This document shows, in pieces, positions 10,519 to 32,423 of a stretch of DNA of 64,000 nucleotides. Positions within the stretch are counted from its first letter, which is position 1; each line of letters opens with the position of its first letter. Source of the stretch: Phenylobacterium sp. (GTDB lineage Bacteria; Pseudomonadota; Alphaproteobacteria; Caulobacterales; Caulobacteraceae); NCBI RefSeq assembly GCF_030679875.1, contig NZ_JAUXSP010000015.1, forward strand, positions 62,001 through 126,000, in the 5' to 3' direction. The notes under the pieces were generated by a model. The model saw nothing but the letters and a program-made list of their open reading frames with translations, was not told the origin of the DNA and searched no databases. The position numbers and the translations under genes are program-made.

Positions 10519-12885
10519 ATGGGACGGCATCTGGGACGATGGGCGGGGCGGGGTCTGCTGGGCCTGGTTCTGACGGGCTTTGCTCTGGAAGCGGCGGTCG
10601 CAGAACCGGCGCGCAGCACCCATCAGGTGGCCGGCCTCGGGGCGCCGGCCGAGATCCTGGTCGACCGATGGGGCATCTCGCACATCTATGCGGGGAGCGT
10701 CCGCGACGCCTTCTTCCTGCAGGGCTACAACGTCGCCCGCGACCGGCTCTGGCAGATCGACCTGTGGCGCAAACGCGGACTGGGCCTGCTGGCCGAGGAC
10801 TTCGGCCCGGACTTCGCCGCCCAGGACCGGGCCTCGCGCCTGTTCCTCTATCGGGGCGACATGACCGCCGAATGGGCCGCCTATGGGCCACAGGCCAAGG
10901 GCTATGCGGAAGCCTTCACCGCCGGGATCAACGCCTATGTGGCTGAGATCCAGGCCGGCGCTCGGCCCCTGCCCGAGGAATTCCAGATCGCCCGGACGAC
11001 GCCCGACATCTGGGCGCCCGAAGATGTGGTGCGCATCCGTAGCCACGGCCTGACCCGCAACGCCGCGGCCGAGGTGGAGCGGGCGCGCATCACCTGCGCG
11101 GCTGGACTTGACGCCAACGCCTTGAACCGTCGCCTGGAGCCCGACCACGCCCTAAGCCTCCCAGAGGGGCTGGATCCCTGCGCCATACCCGCCGATGTGC
11201 TGGGCGACTATCGGCTGGCCACCCAAGGGGTAACCTTCAAGGCCGGCCAGGTGGTGGCGCTCGCCGAGGACATCCCCGCCGACGCCATTGGGTCAAACAA
11301 CTGGACCGTGGCGCCGTCACGGACCGCCACCGGGCGGCCGATCCTGGCCAACGACCCGCACCGGGCGCACGGCGTGCCCTCCCTGCGCTACATCGTTCAT
11401 ATGGAGGCGCCGGGCTTCTCGGCCATCGGCGCGGGCGAGCCCGCCCTGCCCGGGATCTCCATCGGTCACAATGGGACCATCGCGTTTGGCCTGACCATCT
11501 TCCCGGCCGACCAGGAAGACCTCTATGTCTATGAGACCGACCCCGCCCATCCCAGCCGCTACCGCTATGGCGAGGGTTGGGCGGCCATGGAGGTGGTCAC
11601 CGAGACCCTCGAGGTCGAGGGCCAGGCGCCGCGGACGGTGGAGCTGAAATTCACCCGCCACGGCCCGGTCGTTTTTGAGGACCCGGAGAACCGTCGCGCC
11701 TATGCGGTCCGCAGCGTCTGGAGCGACCCGGGCACCTCGGCCTATTTCGGCTCTGCGGACTACATGACCGCGCAGAACTGGGATGAGTTTTCCACCGCCA
11801 TGGGCCGGTTCGGGACCCCCAGCGAAAACCAGGTCTATGCCGACACCACAGGCAATATCGGCTGGATCGCCGCGGGCCGCGTGCCCGTCCGCCAGGGCTG
11901 GGACGGCCTGATGCCTGTGCCAGGCGACGGCCGCTATGAGTGGCGGGGCTTCATGGACTCAGCCGACCTCCCCAGCCGCTACAATCCCGACCAGGGCTGG
12001 CTGGCCACCGCCAACCAGTTCAACCTGCCTGAGGATTATCCGGCTGATCGCGTGATCAGCTTCGAATGGTCGAACCCGTCACGGATGGCCCGGATCGCCC
12101 AGGTCCTGGACGGCGACGCCTCAGTGACCCTCGCCGACGCCATGGCCCTGCAGACCGACTCCACCAATGTCACCGCCGCCGCCCTTGTCCCGCTTTTGGG
12201 CGACATCGCAGGCCCGGAGCCTCGGCTGGCCCAGGCCATCGCCCTGCTGCAGGCCTGGGACGGGCGCACGGACGCCGACAGCGCTGCGGCCGCCCTCTAT
12301 GAGGTCTGGCTCCTCAAGCATCTGGGTCAGGCCACCGTTCAGGCTGTCGCGCCCGCCCAGGCCCGAGCTCTGATCGGCGGCGGCGACCAACCCGCGATCA
12401 GCGCCTATCTGGTCGCCGCCTCCCCCAACGAGCGCGGGCCGATCCTGGCTGCGAGCCTGACGGCGGCCTGGAACGAGGTCACCCAGAAGCTCGGCCCCGA
12501 TCCCGCGGACTGGACCTGGGGCGCCCTGCATCAGGCCAGGTTCGACCACGCCCTGGCGCCGCTGGTGTCTTCGGACGCCGCCGAGCGTCTGGCGGTCGGT
12601 CCCGCCCCCATGGCCGGAACCATGCTGAGTCCGCTCGCGGCCACCTGGCGGCCCAGCGACTATCGGGTGGTGTCCGGCGCCTCGTTCCGCATGGTTCTCG
12701 ACGTGGGCGCCTGGGACAACAGCATGGCGATCAATACGCCTGGCCAGTCTGGCGACCCGGCCAGCCCGCACTATCGCGACCTCTTCCCCCTGTGGGTGAA
12801 GGGCGAGTATGTGCCGCTGCTCTACAGCCGGCCGGCCATCGAGGCGGCGACGGAGACCGTGCTGACCCTGACGCCGGCCCCCTAA
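10519..12885 (+). CDS. Secreted penicillin acylase family Ntn-hydrolase
   Basis: A 788-aa precursor with an N-terminal signal peptide (cleavage likely near ALEAAVAEPA) and periplasmic location. The family self-cleaves into alpha and beta chains, exposing a catalytic N-terminal Ser. Here that is Ser259 in IGSNNWTVAPS, preceded by Gly. Other family motifs are ILVDRWGISHIYA, GYNVARDRLWQ, ANDPHR and the C-terminal DVGAWDNSMAINTPGQSG. Family members cleave amide bonds in beta-lactams, acyl-homoserine lactones or other acyl amides, and sequence alone does not decide which. GGGAG precedes the ATG. The stop overlaps the stop of the convergent aldehyde dehydrogenase gene (12882-12885). Confidence 0.92.
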   Translation: MGRHLGRWAGRGLLGLVLTGFALEAAVAEPARSTHQVAGLGAPAEILVDRWGISHIYAGSVRDAFFLQGYNVARDRLWQIDLWRKRGLGLLAEDFGPDFAAQDRASRLFLYRGDMTAEWAAYGPQAKGYAEAFTAGINAYVAEIQAGARPLPEEFQIARTTPDIWAPEDVVRIRSHGLTRNAAAEVERARITCAAGLDANALNRRLEPDHALSLPEGLDPCAIPADVLGDYRLATQGVTFKAGQVVALAEDIPADAIGSNNWTVAPSRTATGRPILANDPHRAHGVPSLRYIVHMEAPGFSAIGAGEPALPGISIGHNGTIAFGLTIFPADQEDLYVYETDPAHPSRYRYGEGWAAMEVVTETLEVEGQAPRTVELKFTRHGPVVFEDPENRRAYAVRSVWSDPGTSAYFGSADYMTAQNWDEFSTAMGRFGTPSENQVYADTTGNIGWIAAGRVPVRQGWDGLMPVPGDGRYEWRGFMDSADLPSRYNPDQGWLATANQFNLPEDYPADRVISFEWSNPSRMARIAQVLDGDASVTLADAMALQTDSTNVTAAALVPLLGDIAGPEPRLAQAIALLQAWDGRTDADSAAAALYEVWLLKHLGQATVQAVAPAQARALIGGGDQPAISAYLVAASPNERGPILAASLTAAWNEVTQKLGPDPADWTWGALHQARFDHALAPLVSSDAAERLAVGPAPMAGTMLSPLAATWRPSDYRVVSGASFRMVLDVGAWDNSMAINTPGQSGDPASPHYRDLFPLWVKGEYVPLLYSRPAIEAATETVLTLTPAP

Positions 12886-14336
12886 AGCGGCAGGTGGGCG
12901 ATGACCTTCGGCGTCAGATAGGCGTCGATGCCCTCCATGCCGCCCTCACGGCCATAGCCGCTCTCCTTGACGCCTCCGAACGGCGCCTCGGGGCCGCCGA
13001 CGGCGAAGGTGTTGAGGCCGACCATGCCGGCCTCAAGGCTGCGCCCCAGCCAGGCGGCGGTCTCCTGCGAGCCGGTGAAGGCATAGGCGGCCAGGCCATA
13101 GGCGGTGCCGTTAGCCCGGGCCATCGCCTCGTCTCGGTCGGTGAAGGGGGCGAGGATGGCGATGGGACCAAAGGGCTCCTCATGAAGGATCGCGGCGCTC
13201 TCGGGCACGTCCGTCAGCACGGTGGGGCGATAGAAGTAGCCGCGATTACCCAGCCGTTCGCCGCCGGTCCGCACCTGGGCCCCGGCTGCCACCGCGCCAG
13301 CGACCGCCGCCTCCACCGCCGCCAGTCGGCGGTCGTGGGCGAGCGGCCCCATCTCGGTCCGCGGGTCCAGGCCATCGCCCACCACCAGCGACTCGGCGCC
13401 CGCCACGAAGGCCTGGACAACCTGGTCGTAGATCGGCGCCTCCACATAGAAGCGAGTCGGCGAGATACAGACCTGGCCGGCGTTGCGAAACTTGCCCTGG
13501 ACCAGGGCCTGGGCGACGGCGATGGGATCCATGTCGGCGAACACCATCACGGGCGCATGGCCGCCCAATTCCATGGTGCAGGGCTTCATGTGGCGCGCGG
13601 CCTGCTCGGCGAGCAGCTTGCCCACGGGAACTGAGCCCGTGAACGACACCTTGCGGATGATCGGCGAGGCGATCAGGTGAGCTGAAATCTCAGCCGGGCG
13701 GCCGAACACCAGATTCAATACGCCGGCGGGCAGGCCTGCGTCGGTGAGGGCCTGAACCAGGGCGACACAGCCGCCCGGCGCGTCCTCAGGCCCCTTCAGG
13801 ATCATCGAGCAACCGGCGGCCAGGGCGCTGCCGATCTTGCCCGCCGCCTGGGAGGCCGGAAAGTTCCACGGGGTGAAGGCGGCCACAGGCCCGACCGGAT
13901 GACGGGTCACCGTCCACATCAGGCCCGGCTGGTTGGCGGGGATCACCCGGCCATAGGCCCGACGCCCCTCCTCGGCGGCCCATTCAAAGTGCCGGGCGCA
14001 ACCCTCGATCTCCATCTGCGCCTGGGCCAGCGGCTTGCCCTGCTCGAGGGTCAGATCCCGGGCGATCGTCTCAGCCCGCATGCGGATCAGCGCCGCGGCG
14101 CCCCGCAGCACGTCGGAGCGCTGCAGCGGCGTCGTCTGCCTCCAGGCCGCAAAGCCCGCCTCGGCCGCGGCCAGGGCGTCATCGAGATCTGCTGGAGTCG
14201 CCACCGCGTGGCGGCCTACGACCCGCTCATCGGCCGGGTTCAGGACGTCAAGCCACTCCCCATCGCCGCCGGCCCGCCACACGCCACCGATGAACAGGGG
14301 GCGGTCCCTGAGCTTGGCTTCGGACTCCGAAGTCAA
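12882..14336 (-). CDS. NAD(P)-dependent aldehyde dehydrogenase, succinate-semialdehyde type
   Basis: A 484-aa ALDH close in length and motifs to succinate-semialdehyde dehydrogenases. Numbering from the TTG start: PWNFP with Asn158, SFTGS (cofactor loop), MELGGH with general base Glu256, and AGQVC with nucleophile Cys290. No ATG lies near the family N-terminus. A TTG at 14336 gives TSESEAKLRDRPLFIGG and overlaps the upstream oxygenase stop (TTGA), suggesting translational coupling. The coupling argues that it oxidises an aldehyde made by that oxygenase. If a 4-guanidinobutyrate-like compound is hydroxylated, succinate semialdehyde would be that aldehyde. The exact substrate is inferred. Confidence 0.88.
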   Translation of the reverse strand: MTSESEAKLRDRPLFIGGVWRAGGDGEWLDVLNPADERVVGRHAVATPADLDDALAAAEAGFAAWRQTTPLQRSDVLRGAAALIRMRAETIARDLTLEQGKPLAQAQMEIEGCARHFEWAAEEGRRAYGRVIPANQPGLMWTVTRHPVGPVAAFTPWNFPASQAAGKIGSALAAGCSMILKGPEDAPGGCVALVQALTDAGLPAGVLNLVFGRPAEISAHLIASPIIRKVSFTGSVPVGKLLAEQAARHMKPCTMELGGHAPVMVFADMDPIAVAQALVQGKFRNAGQVCISPTRFYVEAPIYDQVVQAFVAGAESLVVGDGLDPRTEMGPLAHDRRLAAVEAAVAGAVAAGAQVRTGGERLGNRGYFYRPTVLTDVPESAAILHEEPFGPIAILAPFTDRDEAMARANGTAYGLAAYAFTGSQETAAWLGRSLEAGMVGLNTFAVGGPEAPFGGVKESGYGREGGMEGIDAYLTPKVIAHLPL

Positions 14337-15520
14337 CGGGCGGGCCCCCTGGATTTCGGATCCGCCTCTGCGGCCTGACCAGCCTGGTACTCGTTCACCG
14401 CCTTGCGCTTGAACGGATTTTCCCTGTGGATCGGGAAGTCGATCTTCAGCTCGCCCCGGACGATCTTCTTGCGCAGGTGCTTGGCGCCGTGGACGCTGAA
14501 GCCAGCCAGATGGTCCCCGGCCACGATCCGTGTGTAGCGCGAAGGATTTTCCGCCGACACGAACTGCGGCAGCGGCTCGACCACCACGTCGTAGTCGACG
14601 GCGAAGAACAGCGGCATGGAGAAGCGCTCCTTGCCGGTGTTCACTACTCGGTGCTGGGTGGCCTTGAACCGACCATTGGTCCAGCCCTCCAGCAGGTCGC
14701 CGATATTGACGATGAAGCCGCCCTCGATCGGCGGCGCCGAGACCCATTCGTCAGCAGCGCTCATCACCTGCAGGCCCGGTCCGCCGGTGTGGAGAATGGT
14801 GAAGCACTCGAAGTCCGAATGCGCCCCGATTCCCAGATGGTCATTGTCCATGGGCCGGTCATTGGGCGGGTAGTGCAGCAGCCGCAGCTGGGACGGGGTC
14901 TTCCTGGTCCGTTCAAGGAAGAATTGAGGATCCAGGGCGAGGCGCAAAGCGAAGGCTTCGAAAAGCCGATCGCCCACATCGCGCACCGCGGCATAGTAGG
15001 CCATCACCTCTTCGCGGAATCCGGGGATCCAGTCCGGCCACTGGTTGGGCACCAGCATCAGGTTTCCGGCCTTGAAGTCGGGATCTTCGTCGTCGATCTC
15101 GATGGCCACATCGAAGGCCGCATGCAGCCGCGGCTTGGTCAGATAGTCATGCTCCGGGCTGGGCTCCACCAGCCGGTAAAGCTCAGGATCGCCGTCATCA
15201 TCCTCGTCGGATATCGGGACCCAGCCGCGGGTGCCCGGCGAGTGGCGGATGTGCACCTGCTGGCGCTGCTCGCGCGGTGAATAGTGGAACTGACGTGAAA
15301 GCTCGTAGGTCCGATCGATCAGCGCCTGCGGCACCCCGTGGTTCTTGATGTAGAAGAAGCCCACCGTTTCGCAGGCCCGGCCGATCTCGGCCACAGCCGC
15401 GGCCTTGGCCTCGGGATCTCCGCCGGTCAGGGCCGCGATATCGATCACGGGAATTTCCGAGAAGGCGAGAAGCTTGGCTCCCATCTCGCCGACGGCTTGG
15501 GTCTGATCGCCGGTGCTCAT
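14333..15520 (-). CDS. 2-oxoglutarate/Fe(II) oxygenase, isopenicillin N synthase-like
   Basis: A 395-aa non-haem oxygenase with an N-terminal DIOX_N region (IPVIDIAAL) and the C-terminal double-stranded beta-helix. The iron triad is His234, Asp236 (GAHSDFE) and His290 (ATQHRVV). The 2-oxoglutarate anchor is in ERFSMPLFF. The ATG at 15520 precedes the first recognisable domain; the frame extends to 15733 without a usable start. It heads a two-gene unit with the aldehyde dehydrogenase and is divergent from a polyamine-type importer, with the shared operator at 15643-15666 between them. Related enzymes include homoarginine hydroxylases and the ethylene-forming enzyme, which release guanidine. 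The substrate here is inferred from neighbours. Confidence 0.9.
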   Translation of the reverse strand: MSTGDQTQAVGEMGAKLLAFSEIPVIDIAALTGGDPEAKAAAVAEIGRACETVGFFYIKNHGVPQALIDRTYELSRQFHYSPREQRQQVHIRHSPGTRGWVPISDEDDDGDPELYRLVEPSPEHDYLTKPRLHAAFDVAIEIDDEDPDFKAGNLMLVPNQWPDWIPGFREEVMAYYAAVRDVGDRLFEAFALRLALDPQFFLERTRKTPSQLRLLHYPPNDRPMDNDHLGIGAHSDFECFTILHTGGPGLQVMSAADEWVSAPPIEGGFIVNIGDLLEGWTNGRFKATQHRVVNTGKERFSMPLFFAVDYDVVVEPLPQFVSAENPSRYTRIVAGDHLAGFSVHGAKHLRKKIVRGELKIDFPIHRENPFKRKAVNEYQAGQAAEADPKSRGPAR

Positions 15521-15642
15521 CGTGAACGCTCCATGGCAGAGCGCGCGGGCTTCGGCGCCCGCGCCGCCAGACTGAAGCCTGTCGAAGAATCCGAGCCCGC
15601 GCGCGGCGGTGGCGGCGGAACGGGCCAGATTCCCAGCTTGGT

Positions 15643-15666
15643 AATACGAATTGTTCAAATCGTAGT
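15643..15666. promoter_or_regulatory. Predicted NikR-like operator (copy D)
   Basis: AATACG-N12-CGTAGT, one mismatch per half from the consensus ATTACG-N12-CGTAAT and with identical spacing. The left arm extends outward to GTAATACG, close to the GTATTACG consensus. It lies in the 282-nt control region between the divergent oxygenase (start 15520) and ABC importer (start 15803), where it could control both. Protein binding is inferred. Confidence 0.6.
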
Positions 15667-15802
15667 CGCGGCGCCCAGGGCCGGCGCCCATCGTCCAAGC
15701 ATTTGGCGCCGCCGCACGAGCGGCCTGCGCCATCGCTTGCCACGACCGGGCCGAAGGTATCGCCTCAACAAACCCCGCGGGGCGGCGAGTACGGAGGCGA
15801 CC

Positions 15803-16921
15803 ATGGGCACGACGGATCGACGAGGCGGGAAAGCCCCGTCTGGCCAGGGACTTATCGGCCGCCGGGGGCTGCTCCTGGGGGCCAGCGCCGCAGGCCTGGC
15901 CCTGGCGGCCGGATGCTCTGGCTCCGGTGACGCCGGCGGCGGGCGCAGCCTGCGGGTCTCATCCTACGGCGGCAATTTCGAACAGGCCCTGCGGGACCAC
16001 ATCTATCCCCTGTTCACCGAGGCGACGGGCATCCGGGTGGAGTCCATGCCTCAGCCCGCTGGCCTGCAGTTCCTCTTGCAGCTGATCGAAGCCAACAAGG
16101 CTGGCCAGACCCCCATGGACCTCTGCATCAGCGCCCCGGTGGACGTGATGCGCGGCAATGCGGCGGGTCTCTGGCGAACCTATGATGCGGATCGCATTCC
16201 CAATCTCGCCAACCTGCCCGACAGCTACCTGACGCGCCGGCCGGACGGGCTGGCCGCCGTGGGCGCCGTGGGCTGGTACTTCACCATGGTCACCAATCCG
16301 CAGGCCATCAGCCCGACGCCCGCCAGCTGGACGGAGCTGTGGGCGCCTGGCCGACGCAACGCCTGGGGCCTGGCCGGCACGGGCGCGGGGCCGATGTACG
16401 AGGTCACCGCCGCCACCTATTTCGACGGTCCTGAAATGCTCAACACCGAGGCGGGCATCCGCGCCTGCGTCGCCAAGATGGCCGGGTTGAAGCCCAACAC
16501 CCGACTCTGGTGGGAGAGCGAAGGGACCATGCAGACCGCCCTCGAGAACGGCGAGGTTCAGGGCGGGGTCTATTTCGCCGACGTCGCCGAGACCCTGATC
16601 CAGAGCGGCGCGAACCTGGAGGTGGTCTTCCCCCGGGAGGGCCCGGTGATCGACTTCGGCAGCTGGTGCCACCCCTCGGCCTCGACCAAGACCGAAGAGG
16701 CCCACGAATTCATCAACTTCATGCTGACCCCGCAGGCTCAGAACCTGATCGCTTCGCGCATGAACGCGCCCCCCCTGATCCGCCCCGAACTGCTGACCCT
16801 GGACGATACGGTCCGAGCCAAGGTGACCAGCCCGACCACCCCCATAGCCACCAATCTGGAGGCCCGGCGGCTGCACATGGACCTCATGGTCCAGGAATTC
16901 AGCCAGATGCTGGCGAGCTAG
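15803..16921 (+). CDS. Polyamine-type ABC transporter substrate-binding lipoprotein
   Basis: A 372-aa extracellular solute-binding protein of the PotD/PotF class. The N-terminus has a twin-arginine-like GRRGLLLGA motif and a lipobox LAAGC, so export may use Tat followed by lipidation. The mature protein starts LRVSSYGGNFEQALRDHIYPLF, typical of spermidine/putrescine-binding proteins, and ends with SASTKTEEAHEFINFML. GGAGG lies 7 nt before the ATG at 15803, and longer starts are unsupported. It begins an operon of ATPase, two permeases, an unknown protein and a NikR-like regulator. Given the guanidine genes nearby, a guanidino compound is a likely ligand. This is an inference. Confidence 0.9.
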   Translation: MGTTDRRGGKAPSGQGLIGRRGLLLGASAAGLALAAGCSGSGDAGGGRSLRVSSYGGNFEQALRDHIYPLFTEATGIRVESMPQPAGLQFLLQLIEANKAGQTPMDLCISAPVDVMRGNAAGLWRTYDADRIPNLANLPDSYLTRRPDGLAAVGAVGWYFTMVTNPQAISPTPASWTELWAPGRRNAWGLAGTGAGPMYEVTAATYFDGPEMLNTEAGIRACVAKMAGLKPNTRLWWESEGTMQTALENGEVQGGVYFADVAETLIQSGANLEVVFPREGPVIDFGSWCHPSASTKTEEAHEFINFMLTPQAQNLIASRMNAPPLIRPELLTLDDTVRAKVTSPTTPIATNLEARRLHMDLMVQEFSQMLAS

Positions 16922-16930: not shown

Positions 16931-17980
16931 ATGTTCGGGCTGGAGCTGCGCGACCTCACCAAGGCCTACGGCGACCAGTTGGCCGCCGACCATGTCAGCC
17001 TCTCCATTCCCCATGGCGCCTTCGTCTGCTTTCTCGGGCCTTCGGGCTGCGGCAAGACCACCGTCCTGCGCATGATCGCTGGCCTGGAGACCCCGACATC
17101 GGGCGCCATCCTGCTGAACGGCAAGGACATCACCGGACAACCCGCGAACAGCCGCCAGTTCGGGATGGTCTTCCAGTCCCTGGCTCTGTTTCCCCATCTC
17201 AGCGTGGGCGAGAATATCGCCTTCGCCCTGCGCCTCCGCGGCGAAGATCCGCGCCGGCGCAAGGCGCGGGTCGCCGAACTCCTGGAGCTGGTCCGGCTGC
17301 CAGGCCTGCAGGGGCGCGCCATCAGCCAGCTGTCCGGGGGGCAGCGCCAACGGGTGGCCATCGCCCGGGCGCTGGCCCAGGAGCCCCCTGTCTTCCTGCT
17401 GGACGAGCCCTTTTCGGCCTTGGACGCCAAACTTCGCGAGGAGATGCAAGGCGAGCTCCGCGCCCTTCAGCGGCGGCTAAAGATCACCACGATCCTGGTG
17501 ACGCACGACCAGCGCGAAGCCATGACCATGGCCGACACCATTGTGGTGATGGGCGAAGGTCGGATTCAGCAGCACGGTCCGCCTGTCGCCATCTACAGGC
17601 GCCCAGCCAATCGTTTCGTCGCCGACTTCATTGGGGCGAGCAACCTGCTGCCGGTGGAGATTCTCGACGGCCACACTGTTCGATACGGCGTCACGGCTTT
17701 GCGGGTCGGCGCGACCTGCGGTGTGGGCGGCGCCCAGGCGACCCTCGCCATCCGGCCCGAAGACCTCATCCTCACCCGCGCCGCCCGGGGCGAGGACAAC
17801 GAGATGGCCGGGGTCATCAGCCTGGTGCGGGATATGGGCGCCTATGTGGAGTATCGAATTGACTGTCAGGGACAGGACATTCTCGGCGTCGCCACCCCAC
17901 GGGACTGGATCGGCGCAAACCCAGGCGAGATCGCCCATGTCCGCCTGCCCGTCGAGAGCTGCCAGGTCCTGGCGCGATGA
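16931..17980 (+). CDS. ABC transporter ATP-binding protein, PotA-like
   Basis: A 349-aa ATPase energising import with the adjacent permeases. Visible motifs are Walker A GPSGCGKTT, Q-loop VFQSLALFPHL, signature QLSGGQRQRV, Walker B VFLLDEPFSALDAK and the switch His in VTHDQREA. The C-terminal 110 residues form a TOBE-type regulatory domain, as in PotA. It begins 10 nt after the binding-protein gene with GGGGGCG upstream. The stop overlaps the next start by ATGA. Confidence 0.95.
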   Translation: MFGLELRDLTKAYGDQLAADHVSLSIPHGAFVCFLGPSGCGKTTVLRMIAGLETPTSGAILLNGKDITGQPANSRQFGMVFQSLALFPHLSVGENIAFALRLRGEDPRRRKARVAELLELVRLPGLQGRAISQLSGGQRQRVAIARALAQEPPVFLLDEPFSALDAKLREEMQGELRALQRRLKITTILVTHDQREAMTMADTIVVMGEGRIQQHGPPVAIYRRPANRFVADFIGASNLLPVEILDGHTVRYGVTALRVGATCGVGGAQATLAIRPEDLILTRAARGEDNEMAGVISLVRDMGAYVEYRIDCQGQDILGVATPRDWIGANPGEIAHVRLPVESCQVLAR

Positions 17981-22009: not shown

Positions 22010-22032
22010 GCCGCACTCCATCCTCAGATACG

Positions 22033-22213: not shown

Positions 22214-22265
22214 ACTGGAAGGGGCGCGCCGAGGCGGCGTGGCCACGGATGGAAGGGGAGTCCGA

Positions 22266-25003: not shown

Positions 25004-25004
25004 T

Positions 25005-26783
25005 TCAGGCCAGGCTGGCGATATAGGCGCGCCAGCCACCCAGATGGGTGATGTCCGTGGCGCCGGCGAGCGCCCGGGGCTCGGCGACGAAGCCCTTGAC
25101 CGTGGTTCCGTCCTCCAGGCTCACCGTGCCAATGGCAAGCGGCGCCGGCACCTCGGCGGTGAAGCTGCCGAAGCCCGCCAGGTCCAGCTCGTAGACCTCG
25201 ACTTCGATGGCGGCGCCCTCGTCATCACCCACATGGATCAAGGCGGGTTTGGGCGGCGTGGTCTCGGCCATGGCGTAGAGCCTGTAGGCGCTGGCCGTCC
25301 TGGTGCGAGCCACCAGCCGTGCGTCGCGCGAGGTCAGCTGCCAGTGGAGCGGCATGCCGGCCAGGTGGGCGCCGACGACGCTCAGTTTGACAGTCTGGGG
25401 CTTGCCGGTGGTGTCGAGCTCAGGGGCGGCGGGCATGGGATGGATCTCCTCATAGCGACGGGCGAGGTCCAGCAGGGCGGCGTCAGCCCAGGCCGGACCG
25501 ATCAGGGTGACGCCAAAGCCCGTACCGTTGTCCCGATAGCCGGCGGGCACGGCGATGGCGCTCATGTCGAGCAGGTTCACGAAGTTGGTGTAGAGGCCAA
25601 GATTGGCGTTGAGCGCGAAGGGCTCGGCCAGCACTTCGCTGATCCGGTAGATGGTCGGCGCTGTCGGCAGCAGCAGGACGTCGATGCTCTCCCAGAGCGC
25701 CTGCGCGTCGCGCGCGTGATCCTGCAAGGCGTAGAGACCCTTGAAAGTCTCGACCCCTGAGACTCCAAAACCCGTCTGGACGATGGCCCGCACCACCGGA
25801 TGGACGGCGCTGGGCCGGGTCCGCAACAAGTCCTCGAGGGCGGCGGTGCGTTCGGCGACCCAGGGGCCGGCATAGAGCAGCTGGGCGGCCTCCAGCAGGG
25901 GGGCGATGTCCACCTCCACCAGGGTCGCGCCAGTGGCCGCCAGCCGGGCGATAGCCTGGTCGTAGAGGCGCTCCGAGGCCCCGTCGCCCATATAGTTGAG
26001 CTGATCCAGTCGTGGCACGCCCATGCGGAAGGCTGGTCCCAGGGCCGGCGCGGCCGGGCCCTGCTCTCGGGAATAGGGATCAGCTCCGTCGAAGCCTGCG
26101 GCGACGGAGTCCACCAGGGCCGCGTCGGTCGCTGTTGCGGTGAAGACCGTGATGCAGTCCAGCGACCGGCAGGCCGGCACCAGGCCGGAGGTGCTCCAAC
26201 TTCCCTTGGTGGGTTTGAGGCCGACCAGGCCGTTGAAGGCGGCCGGCACCCGGCCAGACCCCGCCGTGTCAGTGCCCAGGGCGAAGGCCACCAGGCCCGC
26301 GCCGACCGCGACGGCGCTGCCCGAGCTGGATCCGCCGCTCACATAGTCGCGGTTGAACACGCAGCCGGGAACGCCATAGGGCGTGCGGCTGCCCACCAGG
26401 CCCGTAGCGAACTGATCGAGATTGGTCTTGCCCATCAACACGGCCCCGGCCGCCTGCAGCCGGGCCACGACTGTGGCGGTCTCGTCCGGGACATAGGCGT
26501 AGGCGGGGCAGGCCGCGGTGGTCGGCAGGCCAGCCACATCGATATTGTCCTTCACCGCGAACGGGACGCCGGCCAGGGGCAGGTCTTCTCCAGCCGCGAC
26601 CCTGGCGTCGACCCTTTGGGCGGCGTCCAGCACGTCAGAGGCTTTTGACTTTTCAATCCAGGCTTGAGGCTGGACCTCGTCATAGGCGCCGATCCGCGTC
26701 AGGCTTTCCTGAGCCACGTCTTCTGCGGTTCGGCGGCCCGACCGGACCTCGGCGGCGATGGCGGCGACGGACAGGCGTTCCAT
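25005..26783 (-). CDS. atzF: Allophanate hydrolase
   Basis: A 592-aa amidase-signature enzyme that converts allophanate to two ammonia and two CO2 in the cytoplasm. The Ser-cisSer-Lys triad is visible as Lys78 (FAVKDNID), the cis-Ser in GGSSSGS (about Ser153) and Ser176 in TDTAGSGR. The C-terminal 150 residues form the extra allophanate-hydrolase domain, ending in GWRAYIASLA, so the protein is full length. It is the last gene of the carboxylase operon, 13 nt after the carboxylase stop. It takes the product of the DUF1989 deiminase (if guanidine is the substrate) or of the carboxylase directly (if urea). Confidence 0.95.
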   Translation of the reverse strand: MERLSVAAIAAEVRSGRRTAEDVAQESLTRIGAYDEVQPQAWIEKSKASDVLDAAQRVDARVAAGEDLPLAGVPFAVKDNIDVAGLPTTAACPAYAYVPDETATVVARLQAAGAVLMGKTNLDQFATGLVGSRTPYGVPGCVFNRDYVSGGSSSGSAVAVGAGLVAFALGTDTAGSGRVPAAFNGLVGLKPTKGSWSTSGLVPACRSLDCITVFTATATDAALVDSVAAGFDGADPYSREQGPAAPALGPAFRMGVPRLDQLNYMGDGASERLYDQAIARLAATGATLVEVDIAPLLEAAQLLYAGPWVAERTAALEDLLRTRPSAVHPVVRAIVQTGFGVSGVETFKGLYALQDHARDAQALWESIDVLLLPTAPTIYRISEVLAEPFALNANLGLYTNFVNLLDMSAIAVPAGYRDNGTGFGVTLIGPAWADAALLDLARRYEEIHPMPAAPELDTTGKPQTVKLSVVGAHLAGMPLHWQLTSRDARLVARTRTASAYRLYAMAETTPPKPALIHVGDDEGAAIEVEVYELDLAGFGSFTAEVPAPLAIGTVSLEDGTTVKGFVAEPRALAGATDITHLGGWRAYIASLA

Positions 26784-26796: not shown

Positions 26797-29700
26797 TCAA
26801 GCCGGTTCGACAGCGATCATCGGCGCGCCGGGCGCGATAGCCTGGCGTTCCTGGGCATAGACCTGGCGGACAATGCCGGCGCTGGGGCTCGTCACATCGC
26901 ACTCGGTCTTCATGGCCTCGATGATGGCGATGACGGCGCCCTTCTCGACCCGGTCGCCGGGCTGGACCAGCATCTTCCAGACGCTGCCGCCCAGGGGCGC
27001 CTCGACGAGCTCGGCGCCCTCGGGCACGACGATCTCCTCGGCCTCGGCCACATCGTCGGCGGCGCTGGCCAGGGCCTCCACCCGGGCGAACTCGCCGCGG
27101 CGCTCCCACTCGGCGCGTTCGGCGTCGAAGGCGGCCTCGCGGGTGGTCTGGAAGTCCTCGATGCTGGCGGCGTTCTCGGCCAGGAAGCGGCGATAGTCCG
27201 ACAGGCGGAAGGTCTCATGGTCGATCCGGATCTCCCGCCGACCCAGGGGGAAGTCGCGCCGCCACTCGGTCAGCGCCTCGTGACTGACGGGGAAGAACCT
27301 AATCTGGTCGAAGAAGCGCAGTAGCCAGGGCTTGCCCTCGGTGAAGGCGTTCGTCTGACGATAGGTGTTCCACACCTGGATGGTGCGGCCAAAGAGCTGG
27401 TAGCCGCCCGGCCCCTCCATCCCATAGACGCACATATAGGCGCCGCCGATGCCGACGACGTTAGGCGGCGTCCAGGTGCGGGCGGGATTGTACTTGGTGG
27501 TCACCAGCCGGTGGCGCGGGTCGATCGGCGTGGCCACAGGCGCGCCCAGATAGACGTCCCCCAGGCCCATCACCAGATAGCGGGCGTCGAAGACGATGCG
27601 GTGGACATCATCTTCGCTGGCCAGGCCGTTGATCCGCCGGATGAACTCGATGTTGTCCGGGCACCAGGGGGCGTCGTCCCGGACCGAGGCCATGTACTTG
27701 TCGATGGTCTCGTAGATCGCCGGGTCCTTCCACGAGAGCGGCAGATGAACCACGCGGGACGGAATCTCGAAGTCATCAAGCCCGCCCAGGCGATCTTCGG
27801 CGTCATTCAGCGCACGCAGCAACTCGACCTGCGACAGGACCCGGCTGTCGTAGTGGACCTGCAGCGACCGGATGCCAGGGGTGATGTCGATGACGCCGGG
27901 CAGCGCCATGGTCTTCAGTTCCAGCATCAGCGCGTGGATGCGCAGACGCAGTTCCAGGTCGAGCACGATGGGGCCGTATTCCACCAGCAGGTGGCGATCC
28001 CCCTGGCGGCGATAGACTACGCGGGGCCGATGGCCTTCGGCCTCGATGACACCGAGGATCGGGCTGTCGCTGGACAGGACGGCGGGCGCGGGGACCGGCT
28101 GGGGCGCGGGCAAGGCGGCCCCGGCGATCAGGACGTCTTGCGCCTTCTCCGCCGCCACGGCCTCCTCATCGCTGACCACCTGGAAGGTCACGGTGTCGCC
28201 GGGCGCGAGCTGGCCGATCTTCCAGAGATCGGCCTGGATGGTCACGAAGGGGCAGACAAAGCCGCCCAGGGACGGCCCATCCGGCCCCAGAATGATCGGC
28301 ATGTCGCCGGTGAAGTCCACCGCGCCGATGGCGTAGGCGTTGTCGTGGATGTTGGAGGGGTGAAGTCCCGCCTCGCCGCCATCGCGGCGGGCCCATTGCG
28401 GCTTCGGTCCGATCAGCCGCACGCCGGTGCGATTGGAGTTGTAATGCGCCTTCCACGGGGCGCTGGCGATCATCGCCACATCATCCTCGGTGAAGAAGTC
28501 TGGCGCGCCATGGGGGCCTGCCAGCACGCGGACCGTCCAGGCCTTGGAAAGCGACGGCTGCTGGTCCGGCGCCAACACCGCCCGCGGCGGGCCGACCAGG
28601 CCATCGCCAACCCGCAGGACATCGCCGGCGGCCAGGGTGCGGCCGGCATGACCGCCGAAGCCGCCCAGGGTGAAGCTCGCCCTGCTGCCCAGATAGGCCG
28701 GCACGTCCAGTCCGCCGCGGACCAGAAGATAGGCCCGCAAACCCGCCCCCTTCACCCGCCCGAGTTTCAGGGTCTGGCCGGCGAAGACCTGGAACGGGAC
28801 ATAAGGCTCGATCGGCGCGCCATCCAGGCTCGCCTCCAGCGCCGCGCCGGCCAGGCAGACCGAGGCGGTGCGGTTGAACAACAGGGTGGGGCCAAGGGCG
28901 GTGATTTCCAGCCCCGCGGCGGTCTCCATATTGCCCAGCAGGGCGTTGCCCAGCCGGAAGGCGAGCGCATCCATCGGGCCGGACGGCGGCACGCCCACGT
29001 CCCAGTAGCCCTGGCGGCCAGGATAGTCCTGCACGGTGGTCGCCGGGCCGCCACTCAGTACACGGATTGTCTGAGGTTCGAAGGTGATGTCGGCCAGGGC
29101 GCGGGTCGAGACCTGGCCGGTGACGAAGGCCTCGCTGCGGGCGACCTGGCGCAGCCATTCCAGATTGGTCTCCAACCCCGCCAGGCGCGTGTCATCCAAC
29201 GCCTTCTGGAGCGCCGCAACAGCCTGCGCCCGGTCAGGGGCGGTGACGATCAGCTTGGCCAGCAGCGGGTCGTAGAAGGCGCTGACCTCGGTCCCGTCCA
29301 CCACCCAGGAGTCTGCGCGGACGCCCTCGGGGAAATGCACCTGCGTCAGAACCCCGGAGCTTGGCCGATAGTCCTGGCCCGGGTCCTCGGCATAGAGGCG
29401 GGCCTGGATCGAGGCGCCGCGAGGGGCGGCCTCGAAGCCATCGAGGAACCCGTAGTCGCTGGCCGCGCCGCGGATCATCCAGGCCACCAGATCGACGCCG
29501 GTGACCTGTTCGGTCACCCCATGCTCCACCTGCAGGCGGGTATTGACCTCCAGGAAGAAGAAATCGTCGCGCTCGGCGTCGTAAAGGAACTCCACAGTAC
29601 CGGCCGAGCGGTAGCGGGCCGCGGAGGTCAGGCGCACGGCGGCCTCAATCAGCGCTGCGCGGGTGGCGGATGGCAGATGCGGGGCCGGTGTCTCCTCAAT

Positions 29701-30411
29701 GACCTTCTGGTTGCGCCGCTGAAGGGAGCAATCCCGCTCGCCCAGAGCGACCACATGACCCTGGCCATCACCGAAGACCTGCACCTCGATGTGTCGAGCC
29801 TGGCGGACGTAGCGCTCGAGGAAGACCCCCCCGTCGGAGAAGTTGCTGCCGGCCAGCCGGGTCACGGCGGCGAAGGCCTCGGCCACGGCGGCCTCGTCCT
29901 CGCAAACCCGCATGCCGATACCGCCGCCGCCAGCGGTCGCCTTCAGGATCACCGGGAAGCCGATTGTTCTGGCCGCCTCTAGCGCCACCGTCGCGTCGGT
30001 CAACAGGTCTGTGCCGGGCGCCAGCGGCACGCCCTGGGCCTGGGCCAGGTCGCGGGCCGTATGCTTGAGGCCAAAGGCGCGGATATTGTCCGGCGTCGGA
30101 CCGATGAAGGCGATCCCGGCCGCCTCGCAAGCCTCGGCGAAGGCCACGTTCTCGCTCAGGAAGCCATATCCGGGGTGAATGGCCTGCGCCCCCGTAGCCC
30201 GGGCGGCGGCCAGTATGGCCTCGACGTCCAGATAGGACTGAGCGGCGGGCGCCGGCCCGATCCGCACCGCCTCATCGGCTTGGCTGACATGCAGGGAGCC
30301 GGCGTCGGCGTCGGAGAACACCGCCACCGAGGCCACGCCCATATCCTTGAGCGTGCGCAGGATGCGGCAGGCGATGGCGCCGCGATTAGCGACGAGAACC
30401 TTGGTGAACAC
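26797..30411 (-). CDS. Biotin-dependent urea/guanidine carboxylase
   Basis: A 1204-aa ATP- and biotin-dependent carboxylase. Domains are biotin carboxylase (about 1-450, with KATAGGGGIGM and FFLEVNTRLQVEHGVTE), KipA/KipI-like carboxyltransferase (about 455-1060, with GVPPSGPMDALAFRLGN and GIGGAYMCVYGMEGPGGYQ), and a biotinyl domain with the acceptor Lys1168 in EAMKTE. The family was first called urea carboxylase. Members encoded with two DUF1989 genes prefer guanidine and make carboxyguanidine. Both DUF1989 genes precede it here, so guanidine is the likely substrate, though no residue I can read decides this. Gaps to neighbours are 13-14 nt. Confidence 0.96.
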   Translation of the reverse strand: MFTKVLVANRGAIACRILRTLKDMGVASVAVFSDADAGSLHVSQADEAVRIGPAPAAQSYLDVEAILAAARATGAQAIHPGYGFLSENVAFAEACEAAGIAFIGPTPDNIRAFGLKHTARDLAQAQGVPLAPGTDLLTDATVALEAARTIGFPVILKATAGGGGIGMRVCEDEAAVAEAFAAVTRLAGSNFSDGGVFLERYVRQARHIEVQVFGDGQGHVVALGERDCSLQRRNQKVIEETPAPHLPSATRAALIEAAVRLTSAARYRSAGTVEFLYDAERDDFFFLEVNTRLQVEHGVTEQVTGVDLVAWMIRGAASDYGFLDGFEAAPRGASIQARLYAEDPGQDYRPSSGVLTQVHFPEGVRADSWVVDGTEVSAFYDPLLAKLIVTAPDRAQAVAALQKALDDTRLAGLETNLEWLRQVARSEAFVTGQVSTRALADITFEPQTIRVLSGGPATTVQDYPGRQGYWDVGVPPSGPMDALAFRLGNALLGNMETAAGLEITALGPTLLFNRTASVCLAGAALEASLDGAPIEPYVPFQVFAGQTLKLGRVKGAGLRAYLLVRGGLDVPAYLGSRASFTLGGFGGHAGRTLAAGDVLRVGDGLVGPPRAVLAPDQQPSLSKAWTVRVLAGPHGAPDFFTEDDVAMIASAPWKAHYNSNRTGVRLIGPKPQWARRDGGEAGLHPSNIHDNAYAIGAVDFTGDMPIILGPDGPSLGGFVCPFVTIQADLWKIGQLAPGDTVTFQVVSDEEAVAAEKAQDVLIAGAALPAPQPVPAPAVLSSDSPILGVIEAEGHRPRVVYRRQGDRHLLVEYGPIVLDLELRLRIHALMLELKTMALPGVIDITPGIRSLQVHYDSRVLSQVELLRALNDAEDRLGGLDDFEIPSRVVHLPLSWKDPAIYETIDKYMASVRDDAPWCPDNIEFIRRINGLASEDDVHRIVFDARYLVMGLGDVYLGAPVATPIDPRHRLVTTKYNPARTWTPPNVVGIGGAYMCVYGMEGPGGYQLFGRTIQVWNTYRQTNAFTEGKPWLLRFFDQIRFFPVSHEALTEWRRDFPLGRREIRIDHETFRLSDYRRFLAENAASIEDFQTTREAAFDAERAEWERRGEFARVEALASAADDVAEAEEIVVPEGAELVEAPLGGSVWKMLVQPGDRVEKGAVIAIIEAMKTECDVTSPSAGIVRQVYAQERQAIAPGAPMIAVEPA

Positions 30412-30425: not shown

Positions 30426-31058
30426 TCAGGCGGCGATAATCATGCGCACCGGCGTCGGATTGAAGCCGTTGCAGGGATTGTTGATCTGCGGACAGTTGGA
30501 GACCACCGCCACCAGATCCATCTCGGCGCGGATATCCACGAACAGACCCGGCGCCGAAATGCCGTCCACGATGCCGAGCGCGCCATCAGCCTCCACCGGC
30601 ACGTTCATGAACCAGTTGATGTTGGAGACCATGTCGCGCTTGCCCCGCCCATGCCGGGCGTTGGCCTGCAGGAAGTTCTCGACACAGGCATGCTGGCCCT
30701 TGGTGTGGTGGCCATAGCGCAGGGTGTTGCTCTCGCAGGAGCAGGCCCCGCCGATGGTGTCGTGATAGGCCACCGAAGTGCCCAACACCGTGGCCATCGG
30801 ATTTCCCTCGTTCGACAGCAGCACCGAACCCGTGCGCAGGAAGATGTTGCCCTGGGCGGCGATGGTGTCCTGGGCGCTGTAGCGCTCGGCGTCGTCGGCG
30901 AGCGCATACATCAAAAAATCCACGGCCTGGTTACCCTCCAGGTCAATGATCCGCAGCACCTCGCCCTTGCGCACCACATGATCCCAGGGGGCGAGGGCGG
31001 GCACGATCTCGTCATGCAGGACGGGGCCAGGCAGTCCTTCCAGGGCTTTATCGGTCAT
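30426..31058 (-). CDS. Urea carboxylase-associated protein 2 (DUF1989), carboxyguanidine deiminase subunit
   Basis: A 210-aa DUF1989 protein. Family signatures seen are LRIIDLEGNQAVDFLMY, GACSCESN (candidate metal-binding Cys) and VSNINWFMNVPVE, ending in CNGFNPTPVRM. The DUF1989 pair in guanidine carboxylase operons is described as a heteromeric carboxyguanidine deiminase that yields allophanate and ammonia. This is the shorter of the two (UAAP2 type). It lies 14 nt upstream of the carboxylase and 11 nt downstream of its partner. The reaction is taken from the family, not shown here. Confidence 0.9.
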   Translation of the reverse strand: MTDKALEGLPGPVLHDEIVPALAPWDHVVRKGEVLRIIDLEGNQAVDFLMYALADDAERYSAQDTIAAQGNIFLRTGSVLLSNEGNPMATVLGTSVAYHDTIGGACSCESNTLRYGHHTKGQHACVENFLQANARHGRGKRDMVSNINWFMNVPVEADGALGIVDGISAPGLFVDIRAEMDLVAVVSNCPQINNPCNGFNPTPVRMIIAA

Positions 31059-31069
31059 GGCGGCGCCCT

Positions 31070-31900
31070 CTAGCGACGGAAGTAGTTTTCGACGTTCAGG
31101 AAGGCGCGTAGGCCCTCCGGCGTCGCGTTGCGGATCAGATCATCGTGCGGCGTCACCGGCCCGCGCCAGGCGCTGACCCGTAGTGGCGTGACGCTGTAGT
31201 CGGACCGGGGGTCGCGGACGTGGGGGCAGTTGGCCAGAACCACGATCACGTCCATCTCGGCCCGCAGGGTCAGGCTGCGACCAGGGGGATAGGGACCGAC
31301 GTGGGTCTCCACCGCGCCGTCGGGACCGATCTTCGCGCCCTTGAACCAGTTGATGCAGGGGTGGATGTCCTTGCGGCCGAGACCGAACTTGGCCAGCGCC
31401 AGGGAGAAGCGGTCGCGCGCGTTGGGATGCGGCCCCCAATTGTCCCCGGTCCCGTAGAGGCGGGCGTTGGAGGCGGCGTTGGACGCCCCACAGAAGGCGT
31501 CATGAGTTTCCGCGCCGTCCTCCAGAAGGCTCATCATCGCCCGCCCCATGTCGGAGAGCAGCAGGCGGCCTTGGCCCAGATAGGCGTTCCACTGCACCTT
31601 GACCGTGTCGGCGACATTCAGCCGCTCCACTGGATTTTCGGCGTTGAACACCAGCATGGAGGCGCAGGCGTCGCCCTGAAGGTCGGTCAGGCGCAGCCGT
31701 GCGCCGCGGTTCAGGCGCTTGGCGCCGTAGCCCCCTGCGCCGATCGTCTCCTCCCAGAGCATGTCGTCGGCCGCCACCCCTGTCGGCAGGTCACGAGCCT
31801 CGCTTGGCGGCAAGATCGGCATGGTCTCGATGCGGGTCGCGCCTTGGGCGCGGGCATGGGCCTGGGCGCTCTTGGGATCGGCGGTGGACGCGGCGCTCAT
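31070..31900 (-). CDS. Urea carboxylase-associated protein 1 (DUF1989), carboxyguanidine deiminase subunit
   Basis: A 276-aa DUF1989 protein of the UAAP1 type. It shares with its partner the pattern LRLTDLQGDACASMLVFNAENPVERLN, then DAFCGASNAASNARLYG and INWFKGAKIGPDG, and near the end LANCPHVRDPRSDYSVTPLRV. The ATG at 31900 overlaps the stop of the upstream NikR-like gene (ATGA), so it is preferred to the ATG at 32023 inside that gene. A 30-residue Ala-rich leader precedes the domain. It would form a complex with the 30426-31058 product. Confidence 0.9.
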   Translation of the reverse strand: MSAASTADPKSAQAHARAQGATRIETMPILPPSEARDLPTGVAADDMLWEETIGAGGYGAKRLNRGARLRLTDLQGDACASMLVFNAENPVERLNVADTVKVQWNAYLGQGRLLLSDMGRAMMSLLEDGAETHDAFCGASNAASNARLYGTGDNWGPHPNARDRFSLALAKFGLGRKDIHPCINWFKGAKIGPDGAVETHVGPYPPGRSLTLRAEMDVIVVLANCPHVRDPRSDYSVTPLRVSAWRGPVTPHDDLIRNATPEGLRAFLNVENYFRR

Positions 31901-32379
31901 GCCGCGCCTCCGGCCTGGGCGGCCTTGCCCCCACGCCCATGGGCGTGCAGCGGCGGCAACAGGGCGCGCGTGGTCACCAGGCGGATTTGATGCACGCCAC
32001 GGATCCGGCGCAGCTCGTCGCACAGCATGTGCAGGCGCTCCGAAGGGCCCTGCACCAGCAGGACCTCCAGGGACTGGTCATCCTCCAGGAAGACGTGCTG
32101 CGAGGAGATGACCTCTTTCAGGAACGACCCTTGCGCCTGGGCGAGCGCCTGTCGAACCCGCCCGCTCTCGGCCCGGTAGATCAGGGTGATGGTGCCGGCC
32201 AGGATGGCGCCGTCCCGGCCCTCGCTATGCTCGGCCAGTTCGTGGCGAATCAATTCAGCGATCATCTGCGAGCGGCTGGGCAGATCACGCTCGGCCACCA
32301 TCGCATCGAGCTGGGCCAGGAGCTCGGCGGGCAGGCTGACGCTGAGGCGGGCGAGCTGGGAAATCGGTTCCACGGTCAT
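31897..32379 (-). CDS. NikR-like ribbon-helix-helix regulator 2 (nickel ligands lost)
   Basis: A 160-aa paralogue of the 20487 protein, nearly identical through the ligand region (EVISSQHVFLEDDQSLEV). The RHH domain is residues about 9-50 (ARLSVSLPAELLAQLDAMV, RSQMIAELIRHE). At the four NikR ligand positions it has Gly84, His95, Phe97 and Ser103, so nickel binding is unlikely. It ends in PPLHAHG followed by a Gly/Ala tail. It is the first gene of the carboxylase operon, with operator B 20 nt upstream of its start, which suggests autoregulation. The stop overlaps the next start (ATGA). Confidence 0.88.
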   Translation of the reverse strand: MTVEPISQLARLSVSLPAELLAQLDAMVAERDLPSRSQMIAELIRHELAEHSEGRDGAILAGTITLIYRAESGRVRQALAQAQGSFLKEVISSQHVFLEDDQSLEVLLVQGPSERLHMLCDELRRIRGVHQIRLVTTRALLPPLHAHGRGGKAAQAGGAA

Positions 32380-32399
32380 GAGGTGATCTTGGCTCCGTT

Positions 32400-32423
32400 A
32401 TTACGTTCGTCAATTTTCGTAAT
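32400..32423. promoter_or_regulatory. Predicted NikR-like operator (copy B)
   Basis: A perfect ATTACG-N12-CGTAAT inverted repeat with the same spacing as copies A, C and D. The right arm extends to TAATACC. It lies 20 nt upstream of the NikR-like regulator 2 start, at the head of the guanidine carboxylase operon. It is 237 nt before the divergent symporter gene. Confidence 0.7.

Follow-up and report, generated by a model that had tools for sequence, protein, structure and literature searches.

A putative two-module guanidine regulon with nickel-ligand-deficient NikR-fold regulators in a Phenylobacterium genome

This study concerns a cluster of 17 genes (12882-32379) in a 64,000-nt stretch of DNA, called the window below, from a Phenylobacterium genome of 3.5 Mb in 32 contigs. 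With a probability that we put at roughly 0.7, the cluster forms a regulon of two modules through which guanidino compounds serve as a source of nitrogen, controlled by NikR-fold proteins without canonical nickel binding. Genes were read from an open reading frame (ORF) listing, codon-position composition and profile searches against Pfam and NCBIfam. In order, they encode an aldehyde dehydrogenase (ALDH) and the 2-oxoglutarate (2OG)/Fe(II) oxygenase OGA on the minus strand; PotD-, PotA-, PotB- and PotC-like proteins, U267 and the regulator NikR1 on the plus strand; a second oxygenase, OGB, on the minus strand; the importer proteins gSBP, gPerm and gATP on the plus strand; and allophanate hydrolase (AH), guanidine carboxylase (GC), CgdB, CgdA and the regulator NikR2 on the minus strand. 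The gaps between genes are at most 14 bases in 13 of 16 cases, six of these being 4-base overlaps, and the arrangement is not due to chance, since the synteny is kept in relatives. The nearest named loci come from Phenylobacterium and other Caulobacteraceae, mostly from metagenome assemblies.

In the scheme that we infer for the enzyme activities, the OGA substrate, and the DNA binding, ligand and sign of regulation of the NikR-fold proteins, the importer of module 1 (TIGR03427 type) would take up guanidine and methylguanidine. OGB would hydroxylate the methyl group of methylguanidine, and GC, CgdA/CgdB and AH would convert guanidine through carboxyguanidine and allophanate to ammonia and CO2. 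In module 2, the Pot-type importer would bring in another guanidino compound, cationic and probably of larger size, OGA would hydroxylate the carbon next to its guanidino nitrogen, and U267 (or spontaneous decay) would free guanidine and an aldehyde, the latter to be oxidised by ALDH. NikR1 and NikR2 would bind operators of the type TATTACG-N12-CGTAATA, with both modules switched on when guanidino compounds are present.

The guanidine core and the methylguanidine branch

GC, both DUF1989 deiminase subunits and AH lie together in one contiguous run (25005-31900), each scoring above its curated NCBIfam cut-off. CgdA and CgdB of family PF09347 form the carboxyguanidine deiminase (PMC11410670). 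A core that uses urea rather than guanidine, made up of a urea carboxylase and allophanate hydrolase with associated proteins, would fit the urea names borne by TIGR02712, TIGR03424, TIGR03425 and TIGR03427, and no urease alpha subunit was found over the cut-off in the window genome, where two partial matches scored 22 and 21 bits against a cut-off of 23. However, both deiminase subunits are present and homologous operons with the same genes stand under guanidine-I or guanidine-II riboswitches, which makes a urea core highly improbable. A carboxylase is found in 44 of 299 genomes of the family. Matches of gSBP and the PotD-like protein to the PDB were too weak for naming a ligand.

Judged by its gene families, the right half of the cluster is a methylguanidine demethylase joined to a guanidine carboxylase pathway of the published kind (PMC12508155), because U267 appears to belong with MgdL and OGB falls into the MgdH-type clade. 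The published MgdH/MgdL pair consists of a 2OG oxygenase and a beta-barrel lyase inside a guanidine carboxylase operon; MgdL, published in 2025, is an N-(hydroxymethyl)guanidine lyase with the catalytic residues D49 and R51 (PMC12508155). A first-pass annotation of the window knew of no description of such a joined system; for methylguanidine, the joining of a 2OG oxygenase to a guanidine carboxylase operon had already been described in Vreelandella in that paper. The same annotation had placed every gene family that it named correctly (ALDH, the two oxygenases, the Pot set, two regulators with ribbon-helix-helix (RHH) and NikR_C domains, the TIGR03427 importer set, AH, GC and two DUF1989 proteins), but it counted twelve genes plus two regulators where there are 17, and it overlooked U267.

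U267 is encoded at the end of the Pot operon, and searches of Pfam, NCBIfam and PDB sequences gave no match to it. Its D42-x-R44 aligns with D49-x-R51 of the MgdL-like protein in L173, a Vreelandella-type operon (positions counted by eye), and both residues are nearly invariant in the U267 alignment (A1). They lie in a strand (39-46) of the predicted U267 model, which is beta-rich and has a mean predicted local distance difference test score (pLDDT) of 91.5. Foldseek gave no match to this model at E <=0.001, the best being lipocalin-like at E 5e-3; among the 50 rows listed, five reached a probability of at least 0.89 (an uncharacterised protein besides barrels that are lipocalin-like or related), whereas sliding clamps and thiocyanate dehydrogenase, which make up the remainder, were at 0.15 or below. 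L173 has the order ABC-cgdA-cgdB-carboxylase-oxygenase-U267, followed by a Dpp-like transporter and a GntR gene and then allophanate hydrolase, with a guanidine-I riboswitch upstream and a guanidine-II riboswitch before the carboxylase.

Matches to U267 occur in 25 of 299 family genomes (window genome included), and alignment A1 matches 14 of 398 genomes of the phylum. A scan of named genomes yielded 104 relatives, 80 of which were kept, in DNA stretches that are often incomplete. An oxygenase of the MgdH/OGA kind is present in 73 of these 80 loci, including 69 with an MgdH-type one at >=50% identity, and in 57 the MgdH-type gene immediately precedes U267 in the same orientation; in the window, OGB adjoins U267 but for NikR1 between them. 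Within the DNA examined, a carboxylase was found in 33 of the 80 and a gSBP homologue (>=40%) in 56. This MgdH/MgdL-type pairing spans Alpha-, Beta- and Gammaproteobacteria and Myxococcota, so the use of methylguanidine is probably not confined to halophiles. Five loci from Pseudomonas, Haliea and Marinobacter (L101, L105, L115, L117, L134) consist of sets of oxygenase, U267 and substrate-binding protein (SBP), with neither carboxylase nor cgdB in the stretch and no guanidine riboswitch found in it. A search of plasmids gave one partial Novosphingobium match to U267.

In an oxygenase tree of 117 rows, built by a quick method, OGB lies inside an 87-row MgdH-type clade (support 97) that includes the L173 oxygenase, to which OGB is 55% identical. 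The link between this clade and U267 is partly built in, because most clade rows come from loci chosen for U267. A fairer test is a class-wide oxygenase search that does not select for U267: among 20 stretches examined from it, a U267 homologue is present in each of the four with clade oxygenases (L175, L176, L177, L181) and was seen in none of the remaining 16. OGB goes with the right half, most likely with methylguanidine rather than an arginine-like compound as its substrate. The NitT importer belongs to the guanidine half. H199, D201, H255, R264 and S266, which we take to be the iron and 2OG ligands (2-His-1-Asp site), are invariant in the oxygenase alignment (A2).

NikR-fold regulators, operators and riboswitches

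The newest element of the cluster is its nickel-ligand-deficient NikR regulon. Both regulators carry RHH and NikR_C domains and score 97.7 and 91.9 bits against NF003381, under the NikR equivalog cut-off of 105; the window genome has these two NikR_C genes only. We take the nickel ligands of NikR to be, by number, H76, H87, H89 and C95. Compared with Pyrococcus NikR (2bj1), NikR2 keeps H87 but has G for H76, F for H89 and S for C95, and NikR1 is like it at the ligand positions except for S at 76. The regulators, first annotated as NikR-like, are thus not ordinary NikRs: the domains of NikR are there, but three of the four nickel ligands are gone. In ten stretches (L194-L203) H87 is also replaced by N and C95 by A, so that no nickel ligand is left.

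A phylum-wide search with NikR2 matched 22 of 329 genomes, the window genome included, and 20 stretches around these matches were examined (G354 and G604 were left out). Three hold a ligand-deficient NikR (L243, L244, L245) and 16 a canonical one with C95; the gene was not refound in L260. Guanidine-type genes stand beside the ligand-deficient NikR in 3 of 3 cases and beside the canonical NikR in 0 of 16 (Fisher p 0.001). L243 and L244 have the full guanidine core. In L245, where H87 and H89 are kept and H76 and C95 lost, the regulator lies near cgdA-like and importer-like genes, with no carboxylase in the stretch. All three stretches have TATTAC-N14-GTAATA at <=1 mismatch at the NikR or gSBP promoter (no shuffle control), and L243 and L244 have further one-mismatch matches. 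In Thalassolituus (L132), genes resembling gSBP and cgdA have in their vicinity a NikR-like gene with no ligands left and a single exact site.

In Acinetobacter puyangensis (L145), a NikR-like gene without three of the ligands adjoins allophanate hydrolase. There are three exact TATTAC-N14-GTAATA sites in this stretch (0.00 expected), one before an importer-OGB-U267 unit, one upstream of the unit of NikR and allophanate hydrolase and one before an SBP gene, and no riboswitch was found in it. The 20 kb of L145 hold no CgdA/CgdB homologue; an isochorismatase-family hydrolase lies between carboxylase and SBP (16373-17044) and might replace the carboxyguanidine deiminase.

The operator pattern TATTACG-N12-CGTAATA, at up to three mismatches, has four matches in the 64-kb window against 0.17 expected (largest shuffle 2), all of them in the three divergent intergenic stretches. 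One operator type is shared by all three divergent promoters, which supports a link between the two halves of the cluster. In 23 family neighbourhoods (window excluded), 59 operator matches were found against 1.6 expected from first-order simulated sequence, and 57 of these are at the promoters of the locus: one lies 18-40 bp before NikR2, two lie 155-158 bp apart between OGB and gSBP (a single one in G190), and the variant TAATACG-N12-CGTAGTC or a close form lies at the Pot promoter of 11 of the 12 genomes with module 2, window included. G115 and G004 have no operator match, and G050 and G032 have one stray match each. NikR1 is also present in the 11 genomes that have the variant operator, which suggests that NikR1 and NikR2 and the two operator types may be paired paralogues and operators.

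Among 20 further stretches, 18 have cgdA, cgdB and GC. In all 18 of these, cgdA has a NikR2-like neighbour and the stretch contains an operator, which matches at <=1 mismatch in 17 cases and at three in one (L207). The other two, L208 and L213, have neither. L208 carries a second carboxylase (55% identity) and an allophanate hydrolase without CgdA/B in the stretch, possibly a true urea carboxylase. Overall, the association of regulator and operator with guanidine genes is kept across Caulobacteraceae and is also seen in a small number of Alpha- and Gammaproteobacteria outside this family.

No guanidine riboswitch was detected in the window above the Rfam gathering score (the presence of class IV in the library was unchecked), and a search at E up to 1 over 12000-34000 gave nothing but a sub-threshold snoRNA match. 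Nor was one found in the 10 of the 18 stretches that were scanned, or in eight stretches from six of the 23 family neighbourhoods. Riboswitches are present in L162, L164, L165, L167, L173 and L086, which have no NikR-like match at E 1e-5; L161 was scanned and has neither. The best reading of these patterns would be a protein-based guanidine regulon, formed by the NikR-fold proteins, that replaces riboswitches. We give even odds to the fuller proposal that these proteins are a new class of guanidine or methylguanidine sensor that has lost its metal site and, in Alpha- and Gammaproteobacteria, does the work of riboswitches by way of TATTAC-N14-GTAATA operators, with a duplicated copy and a diverged operator controlling a new oxygenase route by which a larger compound would yield guanidine. 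No description of a NikR-type guanidine regulator appears among the literature matches listed (titles and abstract starts, with few subscription journals covered), and a literature search of the same coverage found no paper that has both NikR and 'guanidine carboxylase'.

The fold family is that of NikR, H87 is kept in the window proteins and both H87 and H89 are kept in L245, so NikR1 and NikR2 might instead respond to a metal, nickel or some other, bound at a different site, and control the cluster for that purpose. However, the window proteins have lost three of the four ligands, those of L194-L203 have lost all four although NikR gene, operator and operon are kept there, and profile searches recognised no nickel enzyme among the cluster proteins. 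Metal sensing is therefore quite unlikely, and regulation in response to guanidino compounds is the reading retained below.

The second oxygenase module

The left half of the cluster, with the Pot-type importer, OGA and often ALDH, is by its distribution a genuine but less conserved add-on, and probably a linked guanidine-releasing module. OGA orthologues (>=72% identity) were found in 12 of 299 family genomes, with a carboxylase in 12 of 12 (hypergeometric p = 2.5e-11, relatedness ignored), which bears out the expectation of the first-pass annotation that the two halves co-occur in relatives. OGB-like matches occur in 20 genomes, 18 of which have a carboxylase; the exceptions are G280, which is fragmented, and G226, where the match has no guanidine genes around it. 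U267 accompanies OGA without an OGB-like match (E 1e-60) in G032, G211 and G115, and OGB without OGA in G026, G059, G271 and others, so one lyase probably serves both oxygenases.

This distribution also bears on the idea that the whole set is one linear pathway, in which a single larger guanidino compound (arginine, homoarginine, agmatine or 4-guanidinobutyrate) is the substrate of both oxygenases. Both oxygenases, ALDH and both importers do lie between common operators, and GC accompanies OGA in every genome. However, OGB, a U267 homologue and the core occur without OGA in G026, G059, G241, G271, G079, G051, G067, G250 and G043, and OGB belongs to the MgdH-type clade; OGB therefore does not need module 2, and a single pathway seems rather improbable. 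The first-pass annotation had favoured such a joined route. It is supported in part, by the co-occurrence of the halves and the common operator; the precedent in Vreelandella, the likely OGB substrate, the place of the NitT importer in the guanidine half and the altered NikRs do not fit it as first stated.

Alternatively, module 2 could serve the breakdown of polyamines or amino acids and have no relation to the guanidine regulon beyond lying next to it. A Pot-type SBP and an SSADH-like ALDH (SSADH, succinate-semialdehyde dehydrogenase), both present here, are typical of polyamine routes, and the module is absent from many genomes that have module 1. This is unlikely, given that OGA occurs with GC in 12 of 12 genomes, is sister to the MgdH-type clade and shares U267, that 11 of 12 module-2 promoters have a variant of the common operator, along with a NikR paralogue, and that Palleronia again has an OGA-like gene next to one for a guanidinase-like enzyme. 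A guanidine-releasing role for module 2 is thus preferred.

Eleven Caulobacteraceae OGA rows join a Palleronia row (support 90) as sister to the MgdH-type clade, and the two groups together make up 99 rows (support 97) that exclude the rest of the tree. Relative to the MgdH-type rows shown, Caulobacteraceae OGA has an insert of about 16 residues and has lost the K/H-E motif, so a different substrate is likely. Cleavage of a larger guanidino compound by OGA is our inference, and the Pot-type importer and SSADH-like ALDH lead us to guess at agmatine or 4-guanidinobutyrate. ALDH is SSADH-like, as first annotated, but its TIGR01780 score of 451 bits is below the cut-off of 646. It stands at the Pot set in 8 of the 12 OGA genomes, window included. 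The PotD-like protein has weak PDB matches, the best being 4edp, followed by PotD. Similarity of OGA to known guanidine-releasing 2OG oxygenases (ethylene-forming enzyme (EFE), 2-ODD-C23) is at the level of the superfamily. The OGA model has a mean pLDDT of 73.9, with the insert region (105-128) below 50. A class-wide OGA search matched 30 of 367 genomes; among the oxygenases of 18 of the 29 others (20 stretches) and of G329, none joins the OGA clade. Plasmids gave eight records at 37-43%.

A gene for an arginase-family enzyme in Palleronia aestuarii (L086) has close to it U267, a Pot set, a gene of the isochorismatase family (9369-9989) and one that is OGA-like. The best PDB match of this enzyme is 7esr/7oi1 (E 4e-159; table name 'Probable agmatinase 2'), which we take to be the Synechocystis guanidinase GdmH. 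In the same stretch a guanidine-I riboswitch (66.2 bits, cut-off 63) precedes homologues of gSBP, gPerm and gATP (56-60%). The OGA-like module therefore recurs beside an apparent other route of guanidine use. The second U267 locus of G347 (L168, 7745-10384) has a PhyH-family oxygenase and a 2OG oxygenase together with a homologue of U267, after which come Pot-type transporters, possibly a further substrate branch.

Several observations weigh against the two-module reading. Regarding the lyase, U267 is no more than 23-44% identical to homologues outside Caulobacteraceae, and the aligned homologues L064 and L065 lack D42 or R44 (no oxygenase was recognised in these two stretches). MgdH/MgdL membership rests on L173 rather than on V. 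boliviensis sequences, the L173 operon also has a Dpp-like transporter and GntR, and its U267 row in the A1 phylum search has two stops inside the matched stretch, although the 225-aa ORF that was used is open. Most of the 80 loci were selected for holding U267. Seven lack an oxygenase of the MgdH/OGA kind, one of these (L111) with a full guanidine core, and 47 have no carboxylase or cgdB, with many stretches incomplete. In three genomes of one genus (G329, G834, G923; L163, L175, L176), tandem MgdH-type oxygenases, SBP and U267 have no guanidine core nearby. The Palleronia OGA is a long branch, and the L168 oxygenase lies outside the clade despite its neighbouring U267 homologue. ALDH is not near the Pot set in 4 of 12 OGA genomes (a remnant in G190; none in the stretch of G140, G032 and G115), and G115 has no operator at its Pot promoter. 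Lastly, the operator pattern was taken from the window itself, and genome-wide at two mismatches its count equals that of the reversed control (9 vs 9 per strand); what is informative there is therefore the two exact ATTACG-N12-CGTAAT matches alone, both of which are in the locus.

The features of the cluster are listed in Table 1. The listed ORFs of ALDH, OGA, potD, gSBP and cgdA start too early, and the likely starts are 14336, 15520, 15803, 22266 and 31900; that of ALDH is a TTG, inferred by eye, and overlaps the OGA stop codon. Outside the cluster, sodium:dicarboxylate symporter genes flank it on both sides (8268-9614 and 32661-33965) and a penicillin-amidase-family gene (10519-12885) adjoins its left end. 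A gene for an HWE histidine kinase (4557-5810) with an ETR1_N ethylene-receptor-like N-terminal domain (126.8 bits) lies a few kb from the EFE-related oxygenases.

Table 1. Genes and candidate operators of the cluster, in window positions
Feature	Position	Strand	Basis
ALDH, SSADH-like aldehyde dehydrogenase	12882..14336	-	Pfam Aldedh; best NCBIfam TIGR01780
OGA, 2OG/Fe(II) oxygenase, proposed hydroxylase of a second guanidino compound	14333..15520	-	DIOX_N + 2OG-FeII_Oxy
Module 2 operator, variant TAATACG-N12-CGTAGTC	15642..15667		pattern match
potD-like periplasmic binding protein	15803..16921	+	SBP_bac_8; weak PDB matches
potA-like ABC ATPase	16931..17980	+	profile match
potB-like permease	17977..18873	+	profile match
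potC-like permease	18870..19682	+	profile match
U267, MgdL-family lyase, proposed N-(hydroxyalkyl)guanidine lyase, 267 aa	19687..20490	+	D42-x-R44, beta-rich model, oxygenase partners
NikR1, putative NikR-fold regulator of module 2, nickel ligands degenerate	20487..21035	+	NikR_C + RHH
OGB, MgdH-type 2OG/Fe(II) oxygenase, proposed methylguanidine hydroxylase	21032..22021	-	tree clade, DIOX_N + 2OG-FeII_Oxy
Operator 1 of OGB/gSBP divergent promoter	22032..22057		pattern match
Operator 2 of OGB/gSBP divergent promoter, 157 bp from operator 1	22189..22214		pattern match
gSBP, binding protein of guanidine-type importer	22266..23360	+	TIGR03427 538 bits, cut-off 334
gPerm, importer permease	23403..24227	+	profile match
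gATP, importer ATPase	24224..25003	+	profile match
AH, allophanate hydrolase (AtzF type)	25005..26783	-	TIGR02713 779 bits, cut-off 511
GC, guanidine (urea-type) carboxylase	26797..30411	-	TIGR02712 1813 bits, cut-off 1304
CgdB-type carboxyguanidine deiminase subunit (UAAP2; A/B naming is our own)	30426..31058	-	TIGR03424 327 bits, cut-off 285
CgdA-type carboxyguanidine deiminase subunit (UAAP1; A/B naming is our own)	31070..31900	-	TIGR03425 287 bits, cut-off 206
NikR2, putative NikR-fold regulator of guanidine operon, nickel ligands degenerate	31897..32379	-	RHH + NikR_C; alignment to 2bj1
Operator TATTACG-N12-CGTAATA, ~20 bp upstream of NikR2	32399..32424		pattern match

Comparison with known systems

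Guanidine biology is known mostly through riboswitches. If the reading given here is true, a protein regulator would be a second way of sensing guanidine and would mark an evolutionary swap between RNA and protein control, and the OGA module would point to a further natural source of guanidine. NikR operators are palindromic, like those of the window, and the operator here differs from the E. coli NikR site. The regulators share RHH and NikR_C domains with the nickel-responsive repressor NikR (PDB 2bj1, 1q5v), but window-type regulators have lost three or four of the four nickel ligands and are linked to guanidine genes.

The closest published counterpart is the gca-mgdH-mgdL-atzF operon of Vreelandella boliviensis, which, like the window, combines an ABC importer, CgdA/B, guanidine carboxylase, AH, a 2OG oxygenase and a beta-barrel D-x-R lyase (PMC12508155). 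In contrast to that operon, the window has no detected guanidine riboswitch but has NikR-fold regulators with operators, it adds a second oxygenase, a second importer and ALDH, and it is built of divergent units rather than as one operon. The guanidine carboxylase pathway of, for example, Raoultella and Klebsiella (PMC12186494) likewise has GC, CgdAB, AH and an ABC importer. Riboswitch control, a frequent though not universal trait there, was not found in the window, which adds the upstream oxygenases. The homoarginine-6-hydroxylases of the 2-ODD-C23 group, EFE and NapI are also 2OG/Fe(II) oxygenases; they hydroxylate the carbon that adjoins the guanidino nitrogen, and guanidine is released as a result (PMC11018352, PMC12508155). 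They differ in being plant enzymes or in releasing guanidine as a side reaction, and OGA was compared with them at the superfamily level only. Finally, with respect to the guanidinase (GdmH) operons (PMC12186494, PMC11410670), Palleronia joins the module of OGA, Pot set and U267 to a guanidinase-like gene, whereas the window would use the carboxylase route.

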